DNA of 64,000 nt, taken from the NCBI RefSeq assembly GCF_035083965.1, contig NC_089729.1, forward strand, positions 317,501-381,500, written 5' to 3'. The notes under the pieces are model-generated. The model was not told the DNA's origin. It saw only the letters and a list, made by a program, of their open reading frames with translations, and ran no database searches. The position numbers were made by a program, and so were the translations under genes. Below, one piece after another: positions 2,364 through 55,700 of the stretch (its first letter is position 1; each line of letters begins with the position of its first letter). This DNA comes from Branchiostoma lanceolatum (lineage: Eukaryota > Chordata > Leptocardii > Amphioxiformes > Branchiostomatidae).

Positions 2364-2501
2364 CAGTCTCGAATTTGTGTAAACTAGAGAGTTGTTAACA
2401 AAATACCATGACAGAGGGAGTGTCAATGATTTGTCAATGAAAAGGAGGAAGTGGAGACAGGTGATTGATAGGTGATTGACAGGTGATTGACGTGTGCTGA
2501 C

Positions 2502-6672: not shown

Positions 6673-6722
<50 letters not shown>

Positions 6723-9700: not shown

Positions 9701-11226
9701 AGGGCAAGTTAAACACGTGGTTAGGGCAAGTCAAACACGAGGTTAGGGCAAGTCAAACACGAGGTTAGGGCAAGTCAAACACGTGGTTAGGGCAAGTTAA
9801 ACACGTGGTTAGGGCAAGTCAAACACGTGGTTAGGGCAAGTTAAACACGTGGTTAGGGCAAGTCAAACACGAGGTTAGGGCAAGTCATACAGGTGGCCAG
9901 GGCAAGTCAAACACGAGGTTAGGGCAAGTCATACAGGTGGCCAGGGCAAGTCAAACACGTGGTTAGGGCAAGTCAAACACGTGGCCAGGGCAAGTCAAAC
10001 ACGTGGTCAGGGCAAGTCAAACACGAGGTTAGGCCAAGTTAAACACGTGGTTAGGGCAAGTCAAACACGTGGCCAGGGCAAGTCAAACAGACGTTTGGAT
10101 GTAGAGTCAATTTTCCTCTCAGTGTGCAGTACCATCATTAATATCCATAGACAGCTGATAATGATGATAATGTGAAAAACAGGAAAGACACAAAGTGATT
10201 TGCTCACCATTTTGGAGCCGAAGTTGGCCTGTCCAGACAGGGCATTGATGGTCTCCGGGAAGTTGTCGTTGGAGATGAGGTCAAGCGTGGCAGGCGTCGC
10301 CCCGGCAACGGCGTTACCCATGGAACTGTAGGGCAGGAGAGACGACGGTAAGGAACGCGCTTTCTTTTGTAAAAAGGTCAGCTGTTTCAAGAAAAACTGA
10401 CCATTCAAGTGCCTTTATCCTACACCTGAAGAGAAATGGGGTGGGCTTATCCTAACCCTAACCATTACCCCAAAGCCGAACATGAACCCATCCAAACCCA
10501 ACCCTAACCCCAAGTGGGGTCGTTTGGCATAACGACAGGGTTTTTGGCCCAGAACCTAGCAGTCCTGGGTTCGAATCCCCTGGCGCCACAGATGTTGCGC
10601 CCCTGGGAAAGGCACTTTACACGACTTTTCTCACTCCACCCGGGTGTAGAAATGGGTATATTGTTTTCTGTACGCGTCGCAGTTAGAATAAGTTATGCAA
10701 ACTTGATTGCAGTGCCACGTCGTCCTTGTGTGCCATAAAAGTGAACAACCAAAAATTTAACCCTGTTTTAACTGCAACGGAGTGGCCTTATTATAACCTG
10801 ACCGAAACCCCAAGCCTAAGCTTGCCTAAGACTAAGCCAAAACCCTAACCCTAACCCAAACCCAAACCCCAAGCCTAAACCAAACCAAAATCAATAACCT
10901 AACGCTAACCTAACCCCTAACAATAACCCTAATAACCCAAAACCCAACCAAACCCTAACCCCTAACCCGCATTGTTATCGCTGAAAGAGAAAGAGTCCAA
11001 CCTACATGACAGTGTCCCTGTCCAGCTCAGACAGTCCTTCCACCATCTTCCCAAACAGGAGAGTGGCCTGCGGATGCAACGGGAGGAGAGTCAAATGTCT
11101 GTCTGCTGTCGGTAACATGTTTCATTCGCACAGATTTGAGTGGATAAGGGCGCGGTAACATACGTCGTGCGATAGTCGTATGACCTTGATGAAATAGGAT
11201 TTTGATTGAAGTGGTAAGTGAGGATA

Positions 11227-11277
<51 letters not shown>

Positions 11278-14200
11278 AGGATGAGAGGGAGAGAGGGTGA
11301 GTGAGAGGGTGAGAGGGTGAGAGGGGGAGAGAGAGGGGGAGAAAGGGATAGAGGGGGAAGGGAGGGAGAGAGAGAGGGGTGAGAGAAAGGGAGATAGAGA
11401 GGAGAGAGAGGAGGGAAGAGAGAGAGAGGAGGGGGAGAAAAAGAGGGAGGGAGAGAGAGGGGGAGAGAGGGAGAGAGAGAGAGTAAAAGTACAGACGAGG
11501 TTCTCTCAGACGTACCTGTGCATCAGTCATTTGCAGATCACTGTATTTACTGTAGTCTCCGTTCGCAACGTCAGCGGCGATGCCATCGGCGTTGTCTTCC
11601 AGGTCCTTGAGGGGAAGGGCGTCGAAGAAAGGGTCGATCTCGTCGTTTGCCAGCTGGTCCAAGAGGTTTCCGGTTCGGGCCTGGAGAAGGAAAAATTGAT
11701 CTTCTCACATCCTTGCTCTTACTGATCGATCAGTGCGCTGTGTGCTCCTCAAACACCGGGCATCCAGCCTAACGCTCGTCCTAAGGACGTCAACCCCCTT
11801 TTAGTAGTATGGCGGTCAAGTAGACGACAGCAGTCGGGATTCCAACTCTTGACTTTCAGGGCAATACACAAGTAGTAGACTGGTTTATTCTGTCATCATC
11901 ATTTGACAGACAAGCCTCATAGCAGCCATTACGAGGCTGAATTGCGAGGCAAAATAAAACATAGTTCATTGTAGTTTACACAGCTTTCAGGCATCGATTA
12001 AAAGTTTATAGACAATGAATATCAGTTAAAACATTTACTTAGACCATTTAAAATATTTCACAATCACTCTCTTAGGGATTGCCTCGGGACAAACAATGCT
12101 ATGAAAATGTGGTAACAATGTTCTCTAGAGTTCATTTAAAAGTCTGATGATGGCCGGAATGGCGCTTCTGGTGTAACGGTTTGTGCCAGAGGGTTGTCCA
12201 TAGCGGCTCGCGTTCCGAAGGTTTCTGCCATGTTGCTGACCACGGGTGGGCGGAAGCGAGGAGTGAAAACGTGGGGACTGTTCTAGTTTAGCAGCAAAGT
12301 CGGTGCATAACTGTTGCCTTCTAGTTGACAGTCTTGGAAGGTTAAGCTGGTTCAGGGTAGCAGTGTATGAGTTGTAAGTCCGTCCTAGTATAATCCTGCA
12401 GGCCCGTTTCTGAACACGTTCTTGGGCGTCGGACTGACCTTTAGTAAAGTAAAGTAAGGTACCTACGCAGCAAACCACGGTACTGTTAGATTGTCAAGTT
12501 CATCGGTGAATTAAAATGGCATATAGCTGGGGCATAAATCTATAGGCATCCTTCCATCTTAGCAGAATATGCTATGAGATATTCCGTCAATAGACCATTT
12601 CACTGATCGTTGGCATGCAAGAAAAGCAAGGTACTCTGGATAACGCAAGAGGCAAATAACATCATTATCATGACAACATGGATCCAGTATATATCAGACA
12701 CATCACGCATGCGTCGTGCACGCCTTGTCATGGCAATGTTGGTGTTCACCCCCTACGTCACCGACGCACTTCTGTGATCCGGAAAAGAAGATTTTAAGAA
12801 GTTTGTCCCACCTTCTTGGCGATCTTCTTGATCTGTTGAGGGCTCATCTCGCTCTTGGCGCTGGCGAAGGTTGAGATCGAGCTTCTGACGTCAGCGTCGG
12901 ACATCTGGTCAATGTCGGCCGTGGGCAGCTTGCCGGCAAGACTCCCCAGGGCGCTCAGCTGTGGGGTTGGTTAATATCTCCGTTAGTCATACCGTACCTG
13001 AGTACGTAGTCATACATCACGTATCTAAGGACCCAGATACCTAGTCTTACCGTATTACCGGACCTATTTAGTCTTACCGTTTAATCGGACCTACCTAGTC
13101 AGTCTTACATTCCGTCTTACCGGACCTACCTAGTCAGTCTTACATTCCGTCTTACCGGACCTACCTAGTCAGTCTTACATTCCGTCTTACCGGACCTACC
13201 TAGTCAGTCTTACATCCCGTCTTACCGGACCTACCTAGTCAGTCTTACATCACGTCTTACCGGACCTACCTAGTCAGTCTTACATTCCGTCTTACCGGAC
13301 CTACCTAGTCAGTCTTACATCCCGTCTTACCGGACCTACCTAGTCAGTCTTACATCCCGTCTTACCGGACCTACCTAGTCAGTCTTACATCACGTCTTAC
13401 CGGACCTACCTAGTCAGTTTTACATTCCGTCTTACCGGACCTGCCTAGTCAGTTTTACATTCCGTCTTACCGGACCTACCTAGTCAGTCTTACATTCCGT
13501 CTTACCGGACCTATCTAGTCAGTCTTATATTCCATCTTACCGGACCTACCTAGTCTTACCGTCTTACCGGACCTACCTAGTCAGTCTTACATCCCGTCTT
13601 ACCGGACCTACCTAGTCAGTCTTACATCACGTCTTACCGGACCTGCCTAGTCAGTTTTACATTCCGACTTACCGGACCTACCTAGTCAGTCTTACATCAC
13701 GTCTTACCGGACCTGCCTAGTCAGTTTTACATCCCGTCTTACCGGACCTGCCTAGTCTTACATCGCGTCTTGCCTATCTAGACATGTAGGTCCCAAGTTC
13801 TCATTGGAACCCCCGGCAGTAATAGCTAGGCGTAAGTACTACCTACCAGTATGACGCGCCTTGACGGTACATTTTCAATATACCTGAATGTTAGATATGT
13901 GAGAGAAATTATTTAACTGGACTACAACAGAAACTTACCTGGGCTGCAGACAGGGCCCCGGAGACGGCAGCTCCGGACTTGTACTTGTCGATCAGAGCCC
14001 TCGCCTGATGCAAGAACAAACAAAAGAAATCAGGTTGATAGTAGTAAAGCTCACTCGGGCCCACTCGGAAGTTAGGTGAAGAATTCGAAGTTAGGAAGGT
14101 AGCTGACTTGTTGTCGAGGACCTATCGCAGTGTCAGCCGGTAACTTTCTATCGTTTGTTCAACATCGGGTCACCAGTATCGGGCAGACTCAAGTCAAACC

Positions 14201-17200
14201 GTCACATGCTTTAAAGTAAATCTAAGTTTGGTCAAATATAACCGGTCCTGTGCAGCATTCAAATGGATGAATTTAGGCCATTCTAGAAAAATAGATATTT
14301 TACGACCAAAATTGAGGAACCAGATTGTTCAGATCATCCACAATGGTGACATGTACAACGGATTATTTGTTGCAGACTACAAAGTAAAAAAAAAATGTAG
14401 CAATAGCCCTACATCCGCTCCGGTGAAGCCCTCTCCGGCCAGCTCGGAGATGGCGCCCACCACAGCTTCCTCGCTAAGGTTCTCTATCTCATCGGGCTGC
14501 AGCTCCGACAGGGACCCGGCCAGACTCTGGAGCGTCGCGGCGCTGACGGAGGCCGGGTCCGACATCTCGGCCGCAAGCAGCTTTCGGTCCAGCTGAAAAC
14601 AGAAATACCGGGAGTGAACCTCAAAAATGGCGCCCAGAATGGCGTAGGGAATTTCCGGAGCAGCCTTCGTCACCCCTGCGTCTCCTAATGCATGAGTCAG
14701 TGAAGTCATGCTTGTCTCGGGCATTGATGTTTCTGAGCTAGGGTGAAGAGATGCTGCTACAGTAACACTTAGTTCAGTGCTTAGATGAGTAGCCTCCTAC
14801 GGCATTGCACAGTGCGAGTTCGTTAAAAACAATGTGGATCAAAACCTCCAGAACTTTGAGAAATGTTCACTACTAACACAGATTGTTCATAGGTCATCAA
14901 GTGACAGGGATGACCTATGACAAGGCTTGCAATGCCTTGGACTGAATAATAAGTCCAAAAAAGGGACTTAAGGACTGAAGCTCCGAGTCACTACCAAACT
15001 AACTGCCCTGACTGTAGGCAGAATAAATGATTTTGCTAGGAGACTTGCAATGGTCACCGAAGGGTTTCATTGGGGGGAATGTGACTTCCCGTGGACAGGC
15101 CAATCATGCACCAAATGTTTGCAGAATTCCGCTATCTGTACCCCCGTAGGAAGGCCTGGTGGAGGCTAGATCTGTACCCCCGTAGGAAGGCCTGGTGGAG
15201 GCTAGATCTGTACCCCCGTAGGAAGGCCTGGTGGAGGCTAGATCCGTACCCCCCTAGGAAGGCCTGGTGGAAGCTAGATCTGTACCCCCGTAGGAAGGCC
15301 TGGTGGAGGCTAGATCCGTACCCCCGTAGGAAGGCCTGGTGGAGGCTAGATCTGTACCCCCGTAGGAAGGCCTGGTGGAGGCTAGATCCGTACCCCCGTA
15401 GGAAGGCCTGGTGGAGGCTAGATCCGTACCCCGCAGGAAGGCCTGGTGGAGGCTAGATCCGTACCCCCGTAGGAAGGCCTGGTGGAGGCTAGATCTGTAC
15501 CCCCGTAGGAAGGCCTGGTGGAGGCTAGATCCGTACCCCCGTAGGAAGGCCTGGTGGAGGCTAGATCTGTACCCCCGTAGGAAGGCCTGGTGGAGGCTAG
15601 ATCCGTACCCCCGTAGGAAGGCCTGGTGGAGGCTAGATCTGTACCCCCGTAGGAAGGCCTGGTGGAGGCTAGATCTGTACCCCCGTAGGAAGGCCTGGTG
15701 GAGGCTAGATCTGTACCCCCGTAGGAAGGCCTGGTGGAGGCTAGATCCGTACCCCCGTGTCCCTCCAGTAGCGTGCAAGATGAGGGTTTGAACCTATGAC
15801 CTCTGGATTTAACTCTTGAGACCATTAACCGTTCTAAGACGGTAGCTCTTACCTCTTTCTCCTCCTTAGAAGGCCCCTGCTGGCTCGCCTCGGTCTCCCC
15901 CTGGTTGCACACGCGGCTCCCGGAGATCGTCTGCTTCATCTTCTTCATCGCGCGCACTTCCAGCTGGCTCAGGTCGCCGATCATGTCTCCGATGATCACA
16001 GCTGCGGGACCCAGTCTGTCAATCAATATAAATCAATGTTGGTTGGTTGGTCTAAGCTACAGGACACAGCCTGCCAATCAATGCTGATCACGTAGCTGAT
16101 TGGTCTAAGCTACAGGACACAGCCTGCCAATCAATGCTGATCACGTAGCTGATTGGTCTAAGCTACAGGACACAGCCTGCCAATCAATGCTGATCACGTA
16201 GCTGATTGGTCTAAGCTACAGACCCGAGCCTGTCAATCAATGCTGACCACGTAGCTGATTGGTCTAAGCTACAGGCCCGAGCCTGTCAATCAATGCTGAC
16301 CAGGTAGCTGATTGGTCTAAGCTACAGGACGCAGCCTGTCAATCAATGCTGATCACGTAGCCGATTGGTCTAAGCTACATATATACAGGACCCAGCCTGC
16401 CAAACAATGTTGGCTACAGGAGAAACAGAATGAATCTGACACAAGAAGCTGAGACCACCTACTTCTCCACACGGGTGACGTTGTTGAAGAAGGTGATGAG
16501 ATCTGCTCCTTGCGGCATCCGGTCGGACCCCTCGAGTTTCGTCCTGATGATGGCGTTTCCGCCCGCGGGCATCTCATCAATGTCCTTGAAGAAGTCGTTG
16601 TCGTACAGGTCAATAATCTGGAAAACAAAGTTTTCGGTCAGGTTTTACTTCTCTTTTTTTTTATACACAATATAGAGCAACAACGAATTGCCTGCATGAA
16701 GTTTGGTCTGCATGGCTGACAAGTTTGACGACTGTGTCATCTAAAATGAGCGTTCGGACTTTCGTTTCAACTACTAGTAGGTATTTGTTAATTTACAATT
16801 CACAAGTTTTTAGTGTCTTGTCAAATATTCTATTTTCTACAATGTACAAGTGGTGGAGAGAATATAAGTTGTGTACAACCGTCACTTGGTCCTCGTCCAT
16901 TTCTTTGCATTATTTGATGTTTCTTTGTATAAAAGAATAACAAGTGTTTAAAGCTCGTACTAAGTCAGTGTCGGCCTGCTCCAGGTCTTCTGTACTTCTA
17001 CTTCACACAAAACAGAACAACAGCAGCTGACCTGCCTGAGGTTTTACTGCATGACTGACAAGTTTGACGACTGTGTCATCTAAGATTATAGCTGTGACGA
17101 CTACAGAAGGGTGGTTTCGCTTGTTATTACATATACTAGTCCTTCGTAGTCGTGGGGCAGTGCATACAAAATATCCATTTAGCAACCCCAGAAACCCCAA

Positions 17201-30641: not shown

Positions 30642-31701
30642 TTACACAGCGCAGTCTCCACATACCCATGTGCCATCACGGGGAGGGCTGACTGGCAGGC
30701 AGCTGACGTGAAAGATCCTCCCGCATGCCTCGCACCTCTGCATCCTTCCCAGACGCTCCCCCTGCTCGCAGTGGCAGACCAGTGTGATGCGCTGTACCTT
30801 GGTTCGACCTTCCTTCTTTCTGAAGCCAGTCAGGCGTGGAAACGGTGTGAGGTTCCCTTGTTTGAAGCACGTCTTCAAATGGCTCCTCATCTTCCTGTTG
30901 TCATACACAACCCTGCTCACGTCATGCCCCTCTGCGATGTCCACTGCCCAGGCGATGGCGAACAGCCCACAATCCAAGACGTTCTTCTGATGCTGTACGT
31001 CCGGTAAGAAGACGGTCAGGGTGTTCCTTGTTTGGTCAACAAACGCGGCGTAGGACTGGTAAAGCTGGATCTGCAGAGATGGGGTCATGGGGACACTGAG
31101 GCTGTCATACAGGCACACCTTTCCGTCTGTGTAAGACGACAGAACCCAGTGCTGATGATTGTTGTGGTGGATTTGTAGCCCCTTTCCTGTCATCTTCACA
31201 AACCCGTCGTCACAGAGACCAACTGCAGGCCCCTCCAGCCCTTGGAGTGCCGGGTACTGGCGGCGGAGCAGCATCTGGGCAGCCTGGATGTGGTCGTCTG
31301 TCAGCATCTGGAGGTATGTCAGAGCCACCTTGTTACGAGCGCTCATCTTGACACTTGGCCACTCCACCTTACGCTCCTCAGTGTGACGAACAAGAACATT
31401 CAGAGCGAAACGTACTCTCTCTGTTGACTTCTTGTCACTATTTTCCAACTTGAAAATAATGGACTTTATTTTTACGACTTGGTTGGTTTGATGGTTTTCT
31501 TGGGTGCCCTCCACTTTTGGCGGGGACCTGGATGCCACCACCTCAGGAGCCTTGTTCTCGGAGCCGATCGCTTGACTGCCGTTGTCTGTGCAGTTGTTCG
31601 GGGAGGCAGCGCGTTCATGATGTTCCACTGCTGCAGCATCGGGAATATCTTTGACAGTCGGGACAAACTCAGGCTCTGCGGGGAGGTCCGTGTCCTTCAT
31701 C
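30642..31701 (-). CDS. Terminal exon: Ulp1/SENP-like cysteine protease domain plus PHD-type zinc finger
   Basis: This exon joins the coiled-coil exon in phase (AA+G, Lys) through a strong GTAAGT donor and a TCTCCTCACAG acceptor. It adds 352 residues: an acidic low-complexity linker, an Ulp1-like core at about 30852-31304, and a zinc finger at 30645-30788. The core shows the C48 catalytic order HW (His2174), YDS (Asp2189), Q (Gln2226 or Gln2228) and DCGLFAI (Cys2234). The finger has C-x-C, C-x2-C, H-x2-C and C-x2-C, ligands C2299 to C2340, a C4HC3 pattern. The frame is also open upstream to an ATG at 31781, and M1991 lies at the exon start, so a separate intronless gene is possible. Similar protease-PHD pairs occur in many animal genomes in mobile-element-like contexts (recollection, not checked). 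Confidence 0.72.
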
Positions 31702-34700
31702 CTGTGAGGAGAGAAATGTTGGAGTTCTTTGGAACCTCTCATGCCTATATGTTGTTTGTTTTCAACAATTATCACTTTCAACTTTTCAGTCTATTCTTTC
31801 TAATTACAATTACAGTAACCGTAAAGTATTCAGTAGGAGGAAGATCATTTCATGCACCTTCAAGGGCATCAGGCTCAAGCAGTATTTCTTGTAAGATGTT
31901 GTACTTACTTGAGGTTAAAGAGCAACAGTCTCTTCAGCCACAGTTTCTGCACTTCAATCTCCAACTCGGTCAGTCTGTCATGAAGAGAGTCCATGGAGTG
32001 TTCATCTGTGACCAAGTACATGATTTAGTAGGTTTTGTTTATTGTTTATTTGCACACAGAATAAACAAATCATTTAATAGCAACAATGATGTAAAAAGCA
32101 AAGTTGGAAAGGGGCAGAGGAAACAAAGGGACTTAGAGAGGGTGATTGAACGAGACAGGAATTAACTTTGGACCTTACTGCTGTCATACTTGCATTATAG
32201 CTCAGTGATGGAGCAAAGATCCTGGGTTCGAGTCACAAACTCATACCTTGTAATATAACATGCATTGCCACATAGAAAGAGCTTACAATAGTAATGATGC
32301 AGTGATCAAGTACGTATGTCAGTAGCCACTTCGCAACAGAATCAAGACCCAAAAGAAGACAGACTTTGTTCGTTGGGTACTGTCTATCTGTGAAACAAGA
32401 CTACGCTACCTGTGGCTGGTACTTTCCAGAGGCCAAAGAAGGCTGTGAAGCGTTCCCACAACCCCTGGACGAAGTACCAGTCCTCTTCAGGCATGACGTG
32501 GTTCCGCACATCCGGGAGGGCCCTGTTGATGATCGCCATGGCGATGTTCATCAGCACGAGGAAGATTAAGGAAATGAAAGCGAAGAAGTAGATAGGGCCA
32601 AGAATAGGAGCAGCCTCCTTGAGCTGATAATAGTAAAAATGTCCAAGAGACATCTGGAACAGTGTGGAGTAGGACTTGCTGATGGTGCTGAAAAACAACA
32701 ACAAAATTATCATATGATTATAAAGGTGACGTAACCTGCTTTACTTTCAAGCTGGCCACAAGTGAAGCACTTTTGTAAAAAAAGAAAAATCATCAAATTG
32801 AATTTTTTTACACCCAAAAGACTAATATATGACAGAAATAAAATGTTTCCTCACCTGTACTCTGTCACAGTAAGGCCGAACATGAGATAAGCGTAGACGC
32901 CAAAAGCTGAGAGCCACAAGAAGAAGTGGAGGATGAAGGAACAGAACTCCCCCGCCATCCCTCGGAACACGGACATCAGCTTGGAGAGGAATGGGTTGAA
33001 CCTCAACAGCCGGAGGAGCTTCATCATGTTGAGAAACGTCAGGAAGGCCAGAAACCAGCCATACACCAAGCTGATGTTCACAGCAGATCGGAAATGGTGG
33101 ACTTGATCTTTAAAAGAAGTGTAATGGATATAATCAAACATTAAAGTACAGTCAAAGCGTTAAACAACTACCTTGTAATACAGTCAGTGTGACAATTTTG
33201 CGTGTTCTCAAACATTGAGCATATTAAATACAATTTTTTTTGTAATCAATGCAGCGTTTTTGTATAAATGTGTTACACACCTTTCCCTTTCTTAACCGCC
33301 ATCAGAGCCTTGGAGCTGTACATTCTCTTAAAGCCGTACAAGACAATGATGGTGAATGCCAAGATGAAGTTGAAGATTTCGACAATATTCCATGGCTCCA
33401 TCAGGTAGGCCAAGCCGGCTGCACATGCAGTTTTTCTCTCTTTCCACAGTGTGTAGAGGAGAATGATGACGTAAACGATTTCCAGCAGGACGTAGATGTA
33501 CCCGATCGTCCCTGGCCGTTGATGAAGTCGGAAGGTGTGCACGTGATGACGGGAGAAAACTCCGGCCGTCTCGGAGAATTCGAACATCATCGTCACCGAT
33601 GTGAACAGATCCAGGTTTCCGTTGTAGAGCACGGCTTCCAAGAAGATGACCTTCGTGCGCTTGTCGATCCAACGGTGGGCCTTCAGCTCTGCTAGGATGC
33701 TGCGCATCTCGTCTGATGATTTTCCCAGGTGCAGACCGAAGCCGTCTCCCCAGTACTGCGTGGTCACACCGTAGATGGGGAGACTGGGGTAGGCGCTGGG
33801 GAGGTGGATCCATCCAGGGGCTTCTGATTCCATCGCTGATGTATTCCTGACCCTTTTCCATCCCTTTTCAAACGCCCCAGTCTCCTTGGTGTGCTCATCA
33901 TACGCTGATGAACATTCATCAAATGAGTGCTGCATTGTCACAGGCACCGTGCACAGCCCTAGGATGACAGGAGAAGGAAACATGAAAAGTCAGTCACAGT
34001 TTACATTTTGCTATTTTGGTATTCCCTTCACTTTTTAGGTAACGTTGGGTGTCTTTAAAGGGAGTGAATTATAAGATTATGATCCTTTGAATGGTAATAC
34101 TGCATGTGAAATCAGATTTTGTAGCATGTCATGTAAGCCCAAAGCAAGATAGATTATTCCTAGAATGTTAAGATAACGATCCTTTGAAGTCTTGAAAGTC
34201 GCTTTTCATAATGTTTCCGCTGTTATGGTAATGTTGCATGTGGCATTAATCACATTTGTAGCATGTCATGTAAGCTAAAAGCAAGTGTTCCATGAAAGTA
34301 GTTCTTCCTACCGGTCTGAACTCGACCTTGGATCAGGCTAGGTGGGTAGACCAGGACCGACTGCATGTCAGCCGTGAAGCTCTTGTCCTGCCAGAGGGGC
34401 TTGTCGCCTTTGTAGGAAGTCTCCGGGTAGAAGTTCCCAAGAGCAGTCTCGTACAGCCAGGACCACAAGGTTAGAGGATCATTTACCTGTGGAGAAATAG
34501 CATTGTGATATAGCTATACTAAGAAATCATAATAATTCTCGTAGATTTGTCATTATAAATTCAAATTGTGCGCACTGAATTTATGTTGTAATCACTATCT
34601 GAGAAGCTTCTAATATTGTCAATAAAAAGGCCCTTTCGCTGGCTCAAAAGCTTTGTCTCACCAATGCAATGGCTTAGTGATCAGGAACTGTACCTAATTA

Positions 34701-37700
34701 AGAAAGAATAAAGAGAGCTACCAATGCAAGAATTTAGCATATTGGACTTACCCCGTCCATAGACTGCACAAAGGTGTTGGTCATGCTCTGTGTCTGATAG
34801 AAACCCTCTGTGGTGTTGTGGTGCTCGTTGGAGATGCCGATGACAAGCAGGAGGCAACAGCAGAACCACATGATGTCCCAAAAGGTGTTCACAACTCTCC
34901 TGTCCCTGCGCTGCCTCATTCTCGCTTGTTTGATGTTGGCAAGGGATGTCATCGAAAGTCGTTCCATCTTCCTCCTCATGCGAAATGCATCGGCTGTAGT
35001 AAGCATATCAAAAAATATCAATAGAGTCACATATACGCTCTGTATTTGTTAGAAAAGTGGAAAACCCACCACCAGGATGAACAAACTGAGGGAAGACGAA
35101 ATGTCAGATCAATTCACAAAACAGGGTCTCGAACCCGTCCGGCTCAGGGAGCACACTCACACTGCACAAAAATGGCTTTCTTTTACCATCTTACAGACAG
35201 TTCTCAAATAATCATCACAGTAGTCACATATGATTGTGTATAGTTTACATCTTCATGGTAAACATATATAATGCTGTTTTCTACAAACACATGTGCTAAA
35301 ACTTGCAGTTGAAGCCTGTCTTCTTTTGTGAAGATACTGCACTAGTGCTGGCATCAATGGAAACGGGGCCCCGCTTCTCTTCAAAAATCTTCTTGACGGC
35401 TTGCGTCTTGCGGATGGATGTAGTCAAGATTGTGAGAAGCAATATCTGAAAGATAAAAGCAATGCTTGTTAGGATTTCTGAAGACATTGTTTATATATCA
35501 TTATAACTTTTATTTGAAAATTCATGCCCGTAGGCTAATTGCAAGGGTACAAACAGTAGAGAGGGTAACAATGGTAACAAGTGTCTATTCTATATGATCA
35601 CCGAAGGAAGAACAGTAACTGAAGATGGCGATACCATTCTAATGATCTGGCTTGTATACAGCATGTTATGAGGAAATTAGGTATTAAACATAACAGTGCT
35701 TGGATGGTAATTACAGGTGGCACTTCAAGGTGTTTTATATAACATAACAGAAGGCAACTGCAACAAACATGTAATGATATTACGTTACAATAATATACTA
35801 TACCTAGGCAATTCAACAGAGATGTCCTTACCTTTGCTGGTTGCATGAGGAACATGTCCACAAGAAAGGTTATGAAGTACACAGACAGCCACCTCTCCGA
35901 CTTGCCCTTGCCCCAGTCCAGACTGTACAGCACGGTGAAGACAGCTGACCCCACAGCAGACAGCACCACCAGCACCCAGGCCACGTACTTGCACCAGTGC
36001 GGCAGGCGCTTGGCTGGTTCTTGCTGGGCGGGTGCCTCAGCTGGGCCGCCCGTCTCCACATCTCGGACCCTCCGGTCGCCCTTGTTGCTGGGTCGGCTGT
36101 ACTGGAACAGCAGGACGATGGCCATGATGACGGGAAGGCAGGTAATGCTAGTCATGACCCCCGTGTAGACTCCATTCAGGGTGAAGGAGAACGACCCCAG
36201 GCTGATGGCCTGCACAACCTGAGTTTCTATTTCTTCCCTCAGCCACATGGCGCTGGACACCATGGACATGAGGAGGAGACTCAGGCAGCAGCCGAGCCTC
36301 TCGCTGCGGGTGAATGCGCTATCTGTAAAGGAAACAAATGGAGACATTTCATCAAAACAAGTTGTCTTAATGATAAAGAATGAGATCAACGTACTTTATC
36401 AAATACGGCAAAAAGAGGCATTCATCCAATACAACTTTATCAGTGACATTTCAGACATATCTTGTAATATGGAGTCCCAGGGATCTTCCATGATAAAGAT
36501 ATTAAATGCAGCTTCGCTACCGCTTTCAAAGGACGGTTATACCGGCTATACAGATACATGTTTATTTGCATGTTCATGCCCTTCCGGGCTAAATGCATTA
36601 CAAGTAATACAATTGTGCATTGTAATAACAGAAAGAAAAATGAAGAAAACTATTCTATGTTCTATCTACCTCTAAAGTTTACACGCTACTTCTCTCTTCT
36701 TGAGACATGTGTACACGAATTCACAGAGTTTCTCAATTACCGATTGATTATTCGATGACATCAAGTATATGAACAGTTTGTCATTTGTTAAGTTTGTATA
36801 TCTCTGGTCTAGTTGTATTGCGTTAACCAAAGAGATGCGTAAATCTTTGTACAGTGAGCATTCTAGAATAAAATGTACTTCATCTTCTATAGAGTTCTTA
36901 TTACAGAGTGCACATAGCCTATCGCTAGGAGGAGTCCGGCTGTATCTACCAGTTTCAATATGCAGTGGGTGGTCGCTAATTCTTAGCTTAGCCATGGCTC
37001 GGCGATGGCTAAAGTTTTTGATGACAAGATATTTTTCTCTTTCATATGCCCGTTTGAATTTTCTGTATGTTCTTAATTTGTTGCCTTGGTTCTCTTTCTT
37101 GCCAGGGGAGTTTAGTTCTGAGTAAAATGTTTGTATAAAAATGTCTTTTAGTCTTTGTTTTAAAGCAGACTGTGCATATGATGTATTGTGATCCTTGTTG
37201 ATAAGTAGGTAGGCATAGCCCGACTCCTCAAGAATTTTACTAACATCGGATAACCAGCATGGTACTTTACTTCGGTGCAATTCTTGCTGTGCTAAATATG
37301 CTTCAAACTGAAGGCTACTTGTCGGCACCTCTTTAACCAATCTTTTGTAATATGAATATAATCTAGTGTAAATTGCAATCCATAACGGGAACCTACCCAG
37401 TTCTGCTCTTGCGGCGAGGTTGCTAGCATTCTTTCTAACACCCAGGATTGATTTACAAAACTTAAGATGTACTTGCTCGATTGGGGACTTGTCGTTGAGT
37501 CCACTTTTGCCCCACGCCTCCGCACCATAAGTTAGTATTGGGACTACGCATGCATCAAATAGTTTACAATAGACAGATATTGACGGGTTACTGTCTCCCA
37601 GAGTTGTTTTGATACTAAATAAAGCTCTCAGAGCTTTCTTTTGTAATATTTTTAATGCTGTTGTGAAGTTTCCCCCTGTCGTAAAGACAACCCCTAGATA

Positions 37701-40700
37701 GCAGTATGAGGAGACGATCTCTATGTTCTTGTTGAGTGAATAAAATTTGAGGTTTGGGGACATATGTCCCTTTTTGTTGAATACAATTATTTTTGTTTTG
37801 TTTAGATTGATTGATAATTTCCATTTATTGCAGAAAGCACCAAGAGAGTTTATTGCATTTTGTAGTCCATGTTGGGTTGTGGACAGTAAGACAATGTCGT
37901 CAGCATAGAAAAGGCTTGATACCTTAGATGTGTTTAATAAGGGCGCATCGAAGTTTCCTGTATTCAGTTCATTTGCTAAGTCACTGATGTATAGATTAAA
38001 AAGTGAAGGACTGAGGACACAACCTTGCCTTACTCCAACCTCGATTGGAAAACATTCACTTAAACCTGAATTTGTCTTCACGCATGCTACCGATTGGCTA
38101 TAAAGGCTTTTTATTATATTGAAGAAATTACCAGTGATGCCGTTTGATAGAATTTTGAATAGTAGGCCTTCGTGCCAGATTGAATCAAACGCTTTGGATA
38201 GGTCCACGAAACATGCAAAGAGTCGCTTTCCTGATTGTGTATATTTTGAGATTAATGTTTTTAAGACAAATATGTTATCTGTTGTTCTGTAATTTTTGCG
38301 GAATCCGGTTTGGTTAGGTTTTAATATTTCGTTTTCTTCCAGAAAAGATGTGATTCTCTTGTTCAGTATAGAAGTAAATAGTTTACCCAGGCAGCTAGAA
38401 ATAGAAATTCCTCGGTAGTTGTTTGCGTTGTCTTTTTTTCCTGATTTGAAGATGGGGACTATGTAACTATTTGACCAGTTTTGGGGGAACAATCCTTTCA
38501 ATAATAAATTAAAGAGTGGATACTTCGATACTTTATCAAATCCATTAACTAACATACAAGATTTGTAAGCAGCTAATCTTCATGGACATAAAACGTACAA
38601 GACATACAAACTACATAAAACTCATTACAGCAACAGTAATTGTATATATAGTATTTATGGTAAAGATGTTAGAATGCAAATGTGGAAACTTCATTAAGTC
38701 CATTATCTAACATACAAGATTTGGAAGCAGCTAATCTTCATGGACATAAAACATACAAACCTAAGACATAAAAACTACATAAAAGTCATTACAGATAGTA
38801 TTTACGGTAAACTTAGGGAAGCAATACTAATGTTACCTTCCGGCATGATAGCGACGGACAAGAATAGGTGTTCCTTTGGCAGATTACTCCGCAGACTTGC
38901 CGGGAAGAGGAACCCGAAGGATCGCAGGTCCTCCTCAGTGGCGACAGGAAAGGTCTTCACCACCTGCCCGTCTCCGCGGTCGGCTGCCAGCCACTCGCCG
39001 CAGAAGAAATAGAACCTGTTGCAATTTAAGTTTGAAAAATTGCCGAGTGTGACTTTCTACTAAAGAAATTGAAAATTTCTGTTATACGTGCATGTAAATG
39101 TACTTTGAAGGACTCTACTTGTCATCAATGAAAAATTCAATGAATGTTTCACACAACATTCAAGCTGTTTTAAAATGTTGTTCAATTTGGCTACAAAAGA
39201 CGCATTACAGCACTCCGTGACTTTGTGTTTTCACAGAATAATTCTTAAATACTGAGAGAAGGAAAATTAATTGGCACAGTTATTAGGTGTTTGAAGAGTG
39301 ATACATTTTCTATCTCTTCATCTAAAAACAGCTGAGTTGACACACTGTGTATACAGGATCTGACGACCGCTCTGAACTCAACTGGCTACATTTATTATTA
39401 TTTTTATCTGTCATGATCACACCTCACTCCACCTTAGTAGCTGTAAGAAAGAAATACTATGAGAAGAAAAATATAGACATAAAGATGTATGTATCATAAT
39501 TATACTATAGGTGCAATACATGGAAAGCTCCAGTGAACTCACAGTTTGCCTGTGGTGAGATCCTGCACTGCTGCTCTGTCCACGTTCCACGATGCACGGC
39601 CCCCCTCCCCACTGTTGTCGTGCATGAGCTGCAGCAGCTCCACGTTACCCAGCTGTTCTGCTGTGCTGAAGGTCAGGGTCACCTGGCTGTTCTGGGTGAA
39701 AACCTAAACAACAACAAAAATTCCACATGTTAGGACCTGCCATTAATAATTGTACTCAAAAACATATTCAGGGGAAAGTTGGGTGATGAAATAATTATAA
39801 GGAGTTGAGTCAGTGCCAAATTTGATGTCCAACCTTCTCTGTGATGTCGACCACTCGCACATCGGAGTTTGCTGCAGCTCCAAACAGCTTGAAGGAAACA
39901 GTGGATTCTGTCCCAGCATGCTTAGCTGCCCCTGTCCAGATGAGCATGCGGTACAGGTAGCCGTTCTGAAGGTTGTCCAACTTCACAGCGTGATGTAACT
40001 GTAACAATATGTGAAGACATAGAACATGAATGTTCACATTGTACAGAGTACTGACCCTGACAGTAGATACTAATATCATAGTCTTACTGAAGCTGAATAT
40101 ATCATTATAGATACAGTAAACTGCAGGTATGTTGCTAATATGCATGCTAATTATATCTATAAGAAAATCTTCGTTCAATTACACATCGTGTCCTTGTCAG
40201 CAAGGCTTTAGCTACATGCACTGGCTTGCAGGGCTCGTATGTCTGTAACTGCTGATGAAAACTAATCAATATCCATATCAATATTAAATAAACATCTGAT
40301 TTTTCAATACTTGCTAAAAAAATGTACCAGCAGAACATCCAGTACGAAATAAAACGTCAACAGAGTAAAAATCAAATGATAACGAATAACCATAACATTA
40401 CACATGGTCACTTTTATTGGCCAGATATGCTTGATTGATTGATGATGACTACTTACCATCCTTTTCCCTCTACGCTCAGCAATCGTGACCACGGCTGTTG
40501 TGGAAAAGTAGAGACAGAGTGCCACAATGATGGCTGCCACAACGGCAACGTTGTCCACCAAGTCACTGAAGTTCAACTCCCCGAAGTCGAACGTGTTCGG
40601 CGGAGTGGCGAAATCAGTTCCGAAGGCCGTCAGATGGTTGCAGTGACAGATGGTGCTGGCAATGGTGGACTGCTTGCTAATCTGTGGAAAGTAGTAAAGA

Positions 40701-43700
40701 AACATGTTGTTATCAGATTTTGCTGGTACAACCACTGGTCATTTTATATTTATTTAGAAAAAAAGAAAAAGCTATCATTAATTTTCTAGCTTTTTATAGA
40801 ATTATCATTAAATGATTTCCACTGCTTCAGATGATATCATGATTGATTGAAAATGTCAGTAGACCATGGACCAAAAAGGCAGTTCCCATTGTCAAACATT
40901 TAGTCAGAAAGAGTGGCCTGAATACATGTACATTAGTACCTCTGGTCAAAACACTCTTGCAGAAGATTTATAAGTACCCAATCATTACCAAATTAGGCTC
41001 AGAAATAACATCATCATCATCATGTCAGGCGGGTTGCCCGGACTAAGTCAACCCTCTTCCTCCAGTCGCTACGGTCCGCCATTAAGTGCTCTAGATCTTC
41101 GGCCCTCACCCCTACGTCCCCAGCAAGTTGGTCAATGTAGGTCCTTCGGGGTCGACCGACACTGGAGTGTCCATGCTTTGGTGTCCAGAGTAGGAGTTCA
41201 CAGAAATAACAAATACGTATAACTATAGCTATCTAACTATCTAACATTAAGCTGTCCATCAATATCAAGATAGTATAAGTTAGGTATATTGTATTGTATT
41301 TTTATGTAGTCTTTCTCCTTTGTATTTTGTATTATATGGGCCAGGTGCCTGAAATGAAGGTTGAAATGAAATATGAACCATCTAATTGCTTTTGCTGGCA
41401 TAATATCAAACACAAACACTGTACCTGGTCCAGTAATGAAAAGGGCAGTCATGTTTCATGTACAGATTATGAACAATATGTGACAAAAATCTGCTGTTTT
41501 CTATACCAAAGCAAGGACATTTTATTGGTAAACAGCCAAAGTTTTTACTTTGTATGTGTTTACAATGTAGCACACTGTCAGGTATTAATAGTTGTAAAAA
41601 TTATGAATACTAAAAGCTAAGTTCTGACAAAACAATGAGAACTGTACACACCGTGCAGCCGTCAGTGCTCCAGTCTTCCTGGGTCTCGCTCCAGTAGACG
41701 CAGCTCAAACGGGCCCACTGGATCTGGTAGGCGTAGAAGTCATTGGCGTGTGACTCCTTCACGTCAGCTCTTTTCTCAAAGTCGCATTCGGCTACTGGTC
41801 CTGGAAAAAAGGAAGTTTATGACAGAGCTGAGAAGCGTGCAACTACTAGGATATCACCGGTGACTCCTGTTGTCAACATCACAAAGACAGTATATGATGT
41901 ATTTTTGCTTTTGGAGATTCCTAATGAAGAAACAAAGAAACAAACATCGCAACAGTGGAAGTGATTCATGAAAATATTAGGCACACTTTCTATGAATCAG
42001 ATTTCACATTCATTATCATAATGATGTACATTTTGTAAAATACCATGTTCAAAATCTCTACAGACATTTGTACTTTTCCTTCACAACAATAGAACAGATA
42101 TGACAAAACATAGTTTAGTGATTCATGTCATTATGGACAAGACAACCTCCTTCATCTGGCAAACAGAATTTTGTATTTGTAGCATTAAACATGTATCATC
42201 GTTCTGTTAAAAAACTTTACCTTTCTATATATGCCTGGATATCCTCAAATTTTGGTGTTCACATAGGTTTTTTGGTGGAAGGCATGATGTTCAGCACGTT
42301 TTTGGGATAATACTGTAGATCAACTGGGGTAGGTTGAAAACCCTTTTCAAAGCTAGAATACTGACACAATCCCACCAGTACGAAATCGGACACCACGCAA
42401 TTAAGTAGGACCTGCGTGCCGAGGTGCCAGACGTACTAACAAGGTATAGTGACAGACGGGCGTTCCCCAGGGTTTGCTCGGACGGATTGCAGAGATTCCT
42501 GTGGAATTCCGGGAATTCTTGCAAATCGGGCGTAAAGTATACTATCAAGCTCGCTCCTACAGCTTCGCTAAAAATACACACCACGTATTTGGACCTTGAT
42601 GTAGTAGTCCACAGGATCATCCTCTCCCGAGACGAACATTGTTGCCTCTCTCTTCTCTGTGTCTTCATCGCCACTCAGGGTCTTCATCAAGGCACACTCC
42701 TCGGGTAGGACGTACGTCTCCATGGACACGTTGTAGTTTTGGTCGTCAGGGCGACCGCCGTAACTACCGGAAACGTCGTACACCACACTCCTATTCAGCG
42801 GGGTGATGGTGACCAGGAATCCTTCTGCGGTGTTGGTGAGGTTCAGCAAATGGTAGCTTGAACTTGTGTTTCCTGGGGCAGGGAAGGTGATGGTTGTTGT
42901 CGCTGGTTTGTTTCCGGAGCCGCCCGGAATGGTGATGTAGAAGTCTTCAGTCAGGTTGTTGAAGGCCACGGGGATGTTGTTCTGTTGGAGTGACAGTTCC
43001 ATGACAGAGGAACGTGCCTGGTACTCCCCGCGCCCCCAGGTAAATGGGTTCTGTTGAAACTGCGTCAACTGCAAAAATAACAGAATCAATATTTCATTAA
43101 CTTTTGCAATATAATTCTGTCTTTTGCCCATTCTACTGTAACAGGAACTGGAATCTGAATTTCTGTACCCCACTTTCAATCCAACCAAGATAAACATGAT
43201 GTCAAAGTAGTGGCAACCACTGAATGAAAATGCAATCACAACTCTGTGGATATAAAAGATTTTTTTAATGAAAAATATCTCCAGGACCTGTACAAAGTAA
43301 ATGAACAACATATAAAGAGAAGTCAAACTCTACAACTGGATAAGAATTCGGAGATTTATTTCCGGACGTTTCGAGTGACATCAATCACTCTTCTTCAGCG
43401 TCACTAAAATGAACTAGCAGAACTAACCAGTACTTATTTACAATAACTAGAAAAACCGGTTTTACATGGCAAATCACACAGTCATGCATAAGACGTATTG
43501 AATTGTAAAACAAGATCTGGAAGGTTCCTATGGTAAGACAACACCATAGGAACATCTATTGTCCTTTGGTTGGGGGGAGGGCGGGGTCCCAGGTACCGGA
43601 GAGTTCTACGCGGAGTCCTCCCTTCCTGTTTAGGGTGGGGTTGTGGATTATTGTAAATTGTAGTTATTGTAAATAAGTACTGATTAGTTCTGCTAGTTCA

Positions 43701-49700: not shown

Positions 49701-52700
49701 ATGTATTTTGATTAAATCCAATATTTCCTTTTCAGATATCCATGGAATAAATGTATACATTAATCTACTAATAGTATTTTTCTACAGTTTTCAAATACAA
49801 ATCTGTAGATTGGATACATATCTATGACTTTGGTTGAGCAACACATAACATGTAGTATAGAACAATTCCTCACATGTGAAGATATTCTTTCTTTGAAAAG
49901 AAGCCTTAAAGATTTCTCTAGTAAATGTTTTAATCATTATAAATCCTTATAAATCACCAGAGGCATGTTTAACTTTTTAGCAGAATAGCAATGTTCTCCT
50001 AATAGATTAATACCAGATCATTGCTATCTGTGACTGCTATCAGCTAACATAGCTGTGGTGATTTAGTTATTCACAAAATTCTATCTTTGATTTCATCAAC
50101 TATCAATAACTAGTAGATAGTCCCTACCTGTGGTCGCCACTATCATTGTCGCCTCACTCTGTGACCTGCAACCGCCTGATGAGAACAGGGCTGTCACCCT
50201 GATGATGTAATCAGTCTCCGGTGACAGGCCAACCACCGGAAGCGATGAGTCGTCTGAGGTCTTGTTGACAACTGTCGTCATGTCCAGCTTGGAGACCACC
50301 ACACGGTATTCCTCAAGGTCAAGGTCAGGGGATGGAGACCAGGTGACCTTGAACCCTTCATCCGTGACGTCAGTTACGGCCAGGTCCAATGGTGGATCCA
50401 CAGCTGCAAGACAAATGATGCAATTTTTACATAAGACAAGTGTTTAAACACTTGCTCTGTTTGAAATTAAACATTTATTAACACTGAAAAGTGTCAATTT
50501 AAGTGTTCATAAATATTTTTCCCATAAGGGGTTCAATCAGAGCACCTGACACATGTGATTATAATATCATGTAATTTCAATTCACTGGTTTAGATGCTTT
50601 TGCAACTTGAAATGCAGATACAAAGTTTAAAGCAATGCTATCATATCCCGTTTTAAAAAGACATGAGTGTGTAAACATGAGATTCAGTCCAGTTCATTTT
50701 CCAAATTAATACAGAGTTTAGGGGTGCCGAATATATAAATTGTGAGAGAGAACAACAACAATATGGACACAGACGATACCTTTATCACAAAGCTGAGTTT
50801 TCCATCCATCCTGACACCCAGCCGAGCAGACACCTGACATCGGGTCACAGTTGACGTCCCCACCTTGGCATTGGCCGCACACTTACAAACGAAAAACATG
50901 GTATCAACACAACACAATGTAGTAGAAAATGCTATATTGCCTTTTCTAGATTGTCATTTTAAATGTTGCAGGTTGAATAATTACATATGATAGTTATGCT
51001 TTCATTTCAAACCTCTCCTAGCCAAGCTGGCATCGATTTTGGGTTAAAATAAAACACAAAGAACATAGAACATAGAACATAAAACAAATAGAGGATAATT
51101 ACTTTGATCAAATTGCACATTTCTGTTCTCTAAGTGCTCATTGTGAGAATAAGCTGCTTGATAAATCATGAACTGCAGATAAGCCCTTAATGTTTATTCC
51201 TAGTTTGTGCATGACTGTGTAATGAACTACAATCCCGTAACAACTTGTTTTACCTCCACAGCCGTGGGCGTCTGCCATCAGCACAAAGCCCTGGCGACAT
51301 TGGCACCTGTACCCCCCCGGAACGTTGGAGCAGATGTGGTCGCACCGGCCGTTCACTGTCGCACATTCGTCGGGCTCTACAAAAAGAACAAAGGTAAAAT
51401 TCAGGGTCTAAATCATCCACAAGAAACGTTACCTCTTCAAAGGATAAAATTCTAGAGTGCTAAAACTGGCTGCAATACATATACATGATTGTACACCTCC
51501 GCCATATGTACAAGTCAGAGCAATAACATTGCAACCGAAAATAATTTCATCAGGTTGGTAGAATATAGGATATAGGAGATTCTTTTTTTACACAACCAGG
51601 TAATCTCACCTGCTGACGTTTCGGTGTCTGTCAGACACCTTCTTCAGAGCTTCTGACTGGAGTACTGCTTCTCACCGCTATGGATCAGGAAGTCATCACC
51701 AGTGATGAACCGAGACGAGGGGGGATACAAGCTCAGCCACATTTGGGATTACATTCTCACCACAAAAGCGTCACCTATATCGGCTACTTATAGTGGTGAG
51801 AAGCAGTACTCCAGTCTGAAGCTCTGAAGAAGGTGTCTGACAGACACTGAAACGTCAGCAGGTGAGATTACCTGGTTGTGTAAAAAAATTAAAAAAAGAA
51901 TCTCCTATATCCAATAACACTGCAAGTCTCCTACCTGTGCAGCCATGCCCGTCCCCCATCAACACGAAGCCCACCGTGCAGGAACAGTTGTAACGGCCCC
52001 CAGGTAGGGTGGTACAGTTCTGGGCACACCCGCCATTTTCTCTTGCACATCCGTTCTCTACAATAAGTACAGAACACAACCAAGGCAAACGTTATTGGCT
52101 GAAGTTCTAGATAAAAGCAACTGCAACAGCAGCGATACTGTTTCGTTCCAATCGCTGTTACAATACTAGTAGTTCTCATTTACATAAATGTATTAATTGT
52201 TATTTCCTGGGATGTGCAGTTATGGGCACACCCACCGTTGTTTGTTGCACATTCGTCTTCTGCAAAGAGTTCAGAATACACAAGTCATGTTCGTTCGTTC
52301 GTTCGTTCACTCTTACCTTTGTAACGTAATGCTGCCCCTACACCTGACTAAGCTATGGGAGAGAGTGAGTGAGTGTTTATCTGATATGAAATTCTATATG
52401 CAAAATTCTGTGGTTCCGAAATCATTTTTCACCGACAGTAACAAACATGAACCTCCCCCTCCACCACCATATCAATCATATTCTGGTCGAACCAGAGACA
52501 GGCGCATTTTTTGGGGGTGTTTCGAAAGGTCATGACATTTGCAATAATCGTGTAATTCTATATGAAACGTTAGAGTGAATTTAATACCAATTATAAATAT
52601 GATAGTGGCAAATTCCTACCTGCTGAGCCTGCACACACGGTGTACACAATTCCGTCTCCACTCCCGTTTTGGGGAAAGGCTGCTTCTGTGTTGTACAGGC

Positions 52701-55700
52701 CCTGAGCGCTCTCGCGAATCCCACGTTGGCAGTAGCTGGTGCTACACCTGTAAAAGCCGAAACTCCTGCCCCCTGTATTCGCGGCTGAGAAAGCCAAGTT
52801 CGCCACGTCACGTACACCCAAGACCGGGCTACAGCCGAGCACGTTGTTGATGTAGGGGTCAGAGTTGTACTCAGTCACACACCTGGAAACACAACAGCAT
52901 CTTGTTATAGGTCAGTTATTATACTACCAGCAGCTGCGCACAGTATGACTGTTCTATATATATATATGGCAACCACTCGGTACAGATATTCAAATCGAGT
53001 ACGGTGACCGTGTCAATTCCTACATCGGTGTGAGGAGGGTTGGCACGGTAGCCTTCGCGTGGATTTGTTTAAGGTGGATAACAGGTTGCGAATCTGAGAC
53101 CCACACACTTTGGGCATCCGCCATCTCCGGCGGCACCAATTCGAGGGAGACGTGCTGGTTCTGGTTAGGATGCTTGCAGCAAGCTGCCGGATGCTTCTGT
53201 AACACTCGAGGTCCGCCTTGATAACGCCAGCCCGTCTGGCGCTGCTCTCGTCCGCCAGTTGAAGACAGCTGCCGTTGGAGACTTGTCCCTCTAACTGAGG
53301 GAGGAATGACTGTTCTATATGTCACCGAACCTACCGAATTTTGTCCGGGTGGCTGCTACTCCCACCCTGGACTGCATAGTCCTCCCCACAGCCCGTCGGC
53401 CTCAGTCCGTACTCTGCACAGAGGTTCTGGTAGTCCCTGCACCAGTCCGAAGTGGCAGACAGACCATCAGCAGGGAGTCTGGCGTTGATGGCCAGGAAAT
53501 TAACGCCATTATACTGCTGGTTTGCAGTAAGGAGGACCTCAAAGGCGTGGTTTCCTGAAGAGAAAAATTGGAACTTCATATATCAAAAATGTCATTGACT
53601 TTGATAAGAAAAGACACCGATTAGACCTATGATAGGGTAGGTACCGTAGAGACATAACAAAATAATGGAAAGCAAAAAGACAAGATTTCTTAGCAAACGA
53701 ATGCTCGCCAATCTATTCAATTCAATATATTTTGTACTGTGGTGCAGGCGCTTAAAACATTTTAGCACAGGAAAGGGAAGAAAAGAAAATAAGCAGACAT
53801 AAACAACATTTGACTTGATTCAAAACATAAAACTGTAACGGGAACGGTCCTAATTCCGACATATTCCTTATCTGGAACTTGTTTGCAAAACAAACATTAC
53901 GGCGCTATGCATGGGCGCTAGTATATGATAAGGACCAATAACATACTATTAGCCTGATATCCAAACCTACATGTATTATACATGTACCTCCCAAGTCTCC
54001 TCTCGGGAGCTATAAGGAACGATTTCAAACTGCCAAAACCAAAAACATCATCTGCAACCAAGTCTTTTCTCTACCGGTGCTCAAAATCATACAACACTCT
54101 TCCATATCATATCAGAACATCTGTACCATCCACATTCAAAATACACATCAAAGACAGACTAAAAATGGACAAAAACATTATGAACTGGTAGCAATTTGAA
54201 ATTGATGTAAATATGTATATATTATGTAATGTTATGTTATGTTATGTGTATGTGTTCCAATGTAATCTGTCTGTTCAACATGATGTGACTCCAGGAAGAG
54301 TAGTGCAGTACACTACGGTGCACTCACTAATGGAGTCGTTTTACCAATAAACCAATAATAATAAACAGGTTTGGATACCAGGCTACCAATAACAATGGAC
54401 TAAGTTGGTATGTCAAATACAGCTAGGTCCCGACACATATCAAAGCACTGATATCTGAGAAACACGCGCCTGGGATGGTGGGAAGCTGTTCCAGCAGTCA
54501 AATCAAACCTCCTTTACCTATAAATCATATACAGTAGATTCACGCTATTTGCATTACTGTTAATAGCATATTATGATATGAATGAAATGGCATAATTGCA
54601 TTAGCCATTTTCGCATACTCCTGCTATTTGCATAAATAATGCCAATGGCAACTGGAAAAACTGGCTGAACATGTCAAAGTCACTAACTCTTGGATCGTAT
54701 GCAAATGTCACTAGCACTCAAATGTAATTCGTGTATGGATAATTTCTATTGTAACACTATAGGAACTGTTGTTGCCCTTTCAGTTTTGTAAAAGCTATAG
54801 CGACTACATTGTCATTTGTGTCTGGATACAGAAGAATAAAATTGCCAATTTTTCGCTAAGTTTGCCACTCAACATGTGTAAATAAACTTATGATATGCTT
54901 ATGAATTCAATATGTTACATTTGGAATAACCTGGGAGTGAGTGAATTTGACACAAAGTGTGTGTGTTTCCTACAAGTGCCATCGTGGTAACCACTACAAT
55001 CCCTCCCTCCCCTTTAGTGCTGGTAATTTTGTCCCCTAGGGTTAATGAACTACTCCTTATTATTGCATAAAATATCATCATCATCATCATGTCGGGCGGG
55101 TTGCCCGGACTAAGTCAGCCCTCTTCCTCCAGTCGCTACGGTCCGCCATTAAGTGCTCTAGGTCTTCGGCCCTCACCCCTACGTCCCCAGCAAGTTGGTC
55201 AATGCCAAAAAGACTGCTTTAATCAACATGGTGAGATAATCATCATCATCATGTCGGGTGAGATAAAGTCCCTGAACGGAACCCAGCTCAAGGAAGTTGA
55301 GCATTTCACATATTTGGGAAGTGGCATAAAATATACTGACAAATATTTATGCAAATAAGAGGATTCTACAGTAATTTTCTCCACTGAAGCGTCTGTCTAC
55401 ATATCTTTGATATCATGTTTCTATCAAGACTAAATGTATAATATCAAGACTGAATGGAAATATATTATCTCCTCAAAAGAAAAATAGGATAGGAGTGTAG
55501 AATGCAGGGAGCGAAATGACCGAGGGGCGGACATGTGGATGGTGCTCCTCTCCTGCCATGTACCACAAACTTCACTAACTGTTACCATCTCAGTCTGCAG
55601 TTCCAAAGGAATCTGCGAGGGGGGCAGTACTGTAATTTGTTATAAATGAAAGTCAGAGAATTCAATCTTCTTGCACTGCCATGTGATAAAGTAGACCTAC

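Follow-up and report, generated by a model that had tools for sequence, protein, structure and literature searches.

In vertebrate polycystin-1 (PC1), according to excerpts of PMC10502374, a coiled coil lies at the extreme end of the C-terminal tail and is required for the interaction with PC2. A different sort of C-terminal module is known from transposons: excerpts of PMC2836005 tabulate Ginger1-9_HM with Ulp1 and PHD domains, mention Ulp1 as part of a MuDR element from a lancelet, and say that the lancelet element Ginger1-1_BF has neither domain. This report concerns a lancelet gene that appears to combine the two. It lies on the minus strand of a 64,000-nt stretch of Branchiostoma lanceolatum DNA (NC_089729.1, positions 317,501 to 381,500; the whole stretch is called the window), and whereas the coil closes vertebrate PC1, here it is followed by an exon for a protease of the Ulp1/SENP type and a C4HC3 finger.

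The evidence begins at the junction (all exons are minus-strand). In the polycystin tail, the coil exon (31909..32005, 97 nt) is preceded by CACAG and has AA/GTAAGT at its 3' border. The last intron (31702..31908, 207 nt) runs from that GTAAGT to CACAG. Behind the acceptor CTCCTCACAG comes the terminal exon (30642..31701, 1060 nt), in frame with the coil exon and recognized also by its homologues and by a fold match to Ulp1/SENP; it consists of a linker (~31700-31377), the protease (~31376-30800), the finger (~30785-30645) and the stop codon TAA (30644-30642). Exons 33958-33281, 33107-32855, 32687-32410, 32005-31909 and 31701-30642 make one spliced frame with a single stop, the terminal one. 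The terminal exon stays open for 352 codons, whereas the longest run among 2000 of its mononucleotide shuffles was 242; a chance open frame was accordingly rejected. There is an in-frame TAA within the GTAAGT donor (31905-31908), so an unspliced transcript would terminate polycystin at the coil, with the ending ...FNLK and no protease. Intron retention at this donor is a possible splice switch, a candidate put forward from the sequence.

The terminal exon carries the motifs HW, YDS and Q-x5-C-G and all eight C4HC3 ligands. The catalytic His, Asp, Gln and Cys are all intact (4/4), and a Foldseek search with the predicted model matched the Ulp1/SENP fold. Given this predicted fold and the relatives described below, the identity of the protease is firm; the sequence of the single protein would by itself make a weak case. 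The finger is a putative one, identified by its ligands and its relatives. NCBIfam assigned no family to any of three proteins, and in P0012 and P0038, two related lancelet proteins, the protease goes undetected by Pfam, a silence that may account for the fusion going unnoticed. The open-licence literature, judged by titles and the openings of abstracts, yielded no polycystin-Ulp1 fusion; nor did it yield any combination of Peptidase_C48 with PKD_channel, or anything related on amphioxus PKD1L3, though other literature may hold such reports. In the main text of the lancelet pangenome paper (PMC12373286) the terms polycystin, PKD, Ulp1, PHD and SUMO are absent.

The same architecture is conserved across Branchiostoma gene models. 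A search with the terminal exon recovered 11 proteins, 8 of them from Branchiostoma, and five of those eight (P0001, P0003, P0004, P0007 and P0008) reach the coil or the channel. When the coil and terminal exon were placed in a full-protein query, approximate in its upstream part, 38 proteins were found at E <= 1, all from Branchiostoma and all with PF08016, in a search bounded by protein length limits that leave room for fusions in other animals. Tallied by name, these are 12 from lanceolatum, 5 from floridae, 5 from belcheri, 12 from floridae x belcheri and 4 from floridae x japonicum. An alignment of 44 rows falls into clade A (30 rows, including the window) and clade B (14 rows: P0007, P0008 and P0038-P0049, whose match is confined to the protease part); it leaves out P0002, P0005 and P0006, which start at the junction, and P0009-P0011, which are not fused. 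The heptad-spaced L and V positions of the coil are conserved across clade A, and coil and tail are contiguous in 29 of its 30 rows, P0037 having no coil. In clade B the linker is different, and an Ulp1 domain still follows the channel. Inside the clades, channel and protease distances agree.

Upstream, the gene is a polycystin-1-like receptor. P0012, a B. lanceolatum model of 2555 aa which its source calls PKD1L3, aligns exon by exon with the window in tblastn over residues 410-2555, beginning with the fibronectin III exon (50.4 kb) and closing with the stop (30.6 kb); residues 1-409 gave no separate match in the window, and the alignment of P0015 extends to 53.55 kb. Pfam finds F5/8-type C, FN3, EGF-like, GPS, PLAT, polycystin and PKD_channel domains in P0012, and GPS, PLAT, polycystin domain and PKD_channel thus occur in a single protein. 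Reading upstream from the coil exon, the last transmembrane exon of PKD_channel (32410..32687; tblastn with P0012 and splice join) has a weak donor, AG/GTAGCG. The exons beyond it come from the gene model and tblastn with P0012: a PKD_channel exon (32855..33107), one shared by polycystin domain and channel (33281..33958), a polycystin domain exon (34312..34486) and two transmembrane exons (34752..34994, its 5' end approximate, and 35832..36322). Farther up are the PLAT exons (39998-39834 and 39703-39543) and an exon with the GPS site CHCNHLTAFG and first transmembrane segment (40457..40681), both supported also by Pfam on P0012, then an ectodomain exon (42582..43068), the fibronectin III exon (50128..50403) and, by gene model and tblastn, EGF-like exons (51376-51254, 52057-51935). 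An N-terminal ectodomain open frame (53334..53582) comes from the open-frame list and tblastn, 53552-53334 being 82% identical to B. lanceolatum P0015. Hydropathy in the four proteins examined shows 10 or 11 hydrophobic segments downstream of the GPS site (placed in P0038 solely by a pattern) and no further one beyond the protease; by homology the tail should be cytosolic. That the window holds a pseudogene was considered and rejected: the four stops in the P0012 alignments fall outside the modelled exons, the far 5' part having been looked at less closely. In the gap that separates the polycystin exon at 36.3 kb from those at 39 kb lies a 635-codon open frame (36675-38579, minus strand), which we take to resemble a reverse transcriptase of the long interspersed nuclear element (LINE) type.

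The initial annotation had proposed much of this from the letters alone, and it has held up: the polycystin-1-like gene (through the P0012 match and its GPS, PLAT, polycystin and PKD_channel domains), the coil exon with its GTAAGT donor joined in phase to an exon behind an acceptor (through coordinates, splice borders and the single frame), and the Ulp1-type core of HW, Asp, Gln and Cys-Gly with a C4HC3 finger, all present, the protease backed by fold and relatives. It had looked to a protein search with the terminal exon and to other Branchiostoma species, and the one recovered Branchiostoma proteins extending into coil or channel while the other have the fusion in their gene models.

I propose, with a probability of roughly 0.6, that this is one polycystin-1-like receptor (GPS, PLAT, about 11 transmembrane segments, channel) that continues through its coil into a cysteine protease of the Ulp1/SENP fold and a C4HC3 finger, a transposon-type cassette with a tethered demodifying role. 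Several points weigh against this proposal. The strongest is that false gene fusions in lancelet predictions have been published (excerpts of PMC4967905 and PMC6071037), and homology-guided pipelines may propagate a false join. The terminal exon scores only 14.0 bits (E 0.044) with Peptidase_C48, under the cut-off of 20.7, so the protease is classed as C48-like, by fold. It scores 21.7 bits (E 2e-4) with PHD, against a cut-off of 24, and in the predicted model the finger has a predicted local distance difference test (pLDDT) value mostly below 50. The minus strand of the window has 19 copies of GTAAGT, so the coil-exon donor by itself proves nothing. Finally, a scan of the last intron found no AATAAA or ATTAAA between the donor TAA and the acceptor, which would speak for the fusion; it counts little, since the first 900 nt beyond the terminal exon have none either, the first poly(A)-type signal downstream being ATTAAA at 29653. 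Against these points stands the comparative evidence, by which the fusion is well supported at the level of sequence: a simple gene-prediction slip is an unlikely source of the join, because the gene models of dozens of related lancelet proteins show a join of this kind.

If the proposal is right, an Ulp1+PHD cassette from a transposon-type protein would have entered the receptor gene and spread with receptor duplications. The protease would be tethered at the membrane or cilium, where it would trim SUMO, NEDD8 or ubiquitin off nearby proteins, and the receptor and its coil would set its position or activity. The likeliest role, in my view, is to strip SUMO, NEDD8 or ubiquitin locally from membrane partners. 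An active protease would give a channel-type receptor its own demodifying enzyme, tying polycystin signalling directly to SUMO/ubiquitin control. Lancelets also offer a multi-copy, multi-species chordate example in which an enzyme of transposon type is attached to a large receptor of the membrane.

Is the protease likely to be active? His is kept in 43 of 44 rows (the other is a gap), Gln in all 44 and Cys in 42; Asp is found in 30/30 rows of clade A. The catalytic residues are thus retained in nearly all members of clade A. An alternative is that the fusion is real and the protease domain binds ubiquitin-like proteins without cleaving anything. Such a change of role would suit P0034 and P0035, where Cys has become Ser, and clade B, where Asn replaces Asp in all 12 readable rows (two have gaps). 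The window itself, with all four catalytic positions intact, and the near universality of Cys make this improbable as a general account. Paralogs with C to S, with D to N or without a finger constitute a natural test series.

The initial annotation had also envisaged membrane-to-nucleus signalling, in which the tail is cleaved and enters the nucleus, the PHD reads histones, and SUMO or ubiquitin is removed at chromatin. Its premise stands: the tail of vertebrate polycystin-1 can reach the nucleus, in that PC1-p30 can localise there and coactivate STATs (excerpts of PMC10502374), and because of this, nuclear action of the lancelet tail is possible by analogy. The eight PHD ligands, complete in 29 of 44 rows, would also suit it in clade A, where 28 of 30 rows have the full set and the other two come from models that stop short. 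In clade B, however, only one row of 14 has the full set, some models perhaps being cut short, and yet the protease is kept.

Two further observations count against nuclear signalling. The basic pattern K[KR]x[KR], the one nuclear localization signal pattern tried, is missing from 37 of the 44 tails in the stretch scanned (those with it are P0003, P0019, P0022, P0024, P0025, P0032 and P0033). A Trp before [F/Y]H forms the cage for H3K4me3, and the residue before [F/Y/L/V/I]H is Trp in none of 33 readable lancelet PHDs (30 in fused models, including the window, where it is Ile, and 3 in models that start at the junction), as opposed to 6 of 10 readable short relatives. The window finger therefore lacks the mark of an H3K4me3-type PHD and, if it binds histones, its putative target is more likely unmodified H3. 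The extension to the nucleus is left unsupported; nothing tested here favours it, and I consider it doubtful.

Where did the cassette come from? A profile search found 32 proteins, 4 of them already found with the terminal exon (P0003, P0009, P0010 and P0011) and 28 new and short. Among ten of the new short relatives, five pass the Pfam cut-off for PHD (P0050, P0052, P0057, P0059 and P0064) and three that for C48 (P0050, P0059 and P0062), P0050 and P0059 passing both. Pfam finds no transposase domain in the terminal exon, and none of the 10 inverted pairs of at least 60 nt in the window flanks it, so the exon is at most a derived cassette. I infer that it derives from a transposon-type Ulp1+PHD protein. 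The mobile element that the initial annotation offered as an alternative therefore survives in part: it fits as the origin of the cassette, given the short relatives, the likeness to Ginger1 and the tree, and it does not fit as a rival to the fusion. A viral source was tried and rejected, 83 stretches fitting a pattern and none being confirmed.

The tree began with 56 sequences (15 from clade A, 10 from clade B and 31 short proteins) and ended with 48, P0022, P0066, P0067 and P0072 not being croppable and 4 others being dropped for gaps. Clade A (support 79) and clade B (100) group together (100), with P0050, P0051 and P0053 adjacent (100). Channel identity is 0.752 within A, 0.855 within B and 0.289 between them; protease identity is 0.766, 0.857 and 0.510. 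Expressed in within-A units and gamma-corrected, the net distance between A and B is 6.24 in the channel and 3.07 in the protease, so the cassette seems to be more recent than the divergence of its hosts, unless long-term constraint differs. This raises the idea that two lancelet polycystin-1-like lineages acquired an Ulp1-PHD cassette of transposon origin, by two or more captures or by movement, giving a receptor-gated SUMO/ubiquitin-like protease released in some members to chromatin. The two-capture reading draws on depth; the single lancelet cassette clade is no demonstration of it, being equally compatible with two captures out of the same element family and with a lone capture after which the cassette moved. 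I give this version a small chance.

The least probable explanation, that two adjacent genes have been falsely joined, polycystin stopping at the donor TAA and a separate Ulp1-PHD gene starting at the Met on the acceptor side, can point to that TAA, to P0002, P0005 and P0006, annotated from this Met, and to the published false fusions, and is very unlikely in view of the gapless join in clade A, the channel-then-protease order of divergent clade B behind another linker, the agreement of channel and protease distances, the signal-free intron for what little it counts, and the Met itself, which is not conserved as a start, the first residue past the join in clade A being M in 24 rows, V in 3, I in 2 and L in 1.

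Elsewhere in the window, tandem arrays occupy parts of 1-16379, with units of 71 nt (1-2387) and 20 nt (4022-5495), a 22-nt spacing (7347-10089), and units of 35 nt (13086-13757), 36 nt (15134-15758) and 53 nt (16047-16379); an imperfect AACCCT run lies at 10841-10968. Open frames at 62339-63019 (minus strand) presumably resemble the C-terminal part of a dynein heavy chain.

How, then, does the gene compare with those already described? It resembles PKD1 and PKD1L1-3 in its GPS, PLAT, polycystin domain and PKD_channel, in its 10-11 hydrophobic segments and in the coil of its presumably cytosolic tail. Its protease is 10-20% identical to the Ulp1/SENP (C48, clan CE) rows of the Foldseek list, Pfam C48 being sub-threshold here, and unlike those proteases it would be joined to a polytopic receptor. 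The transposon tails, Ginger1-9_HM and the Ulp1 of MuDR, likewise have Ulp1 with PHD at the C-terminus of a protein, as excerpts of PMC2836005 describe them; the likeness is one of description rather than of compared sequences, and unlike Ginger1 and MuDR the lancelet protein has no integrase or transposase, its cassette following a receptor and its coil instead.
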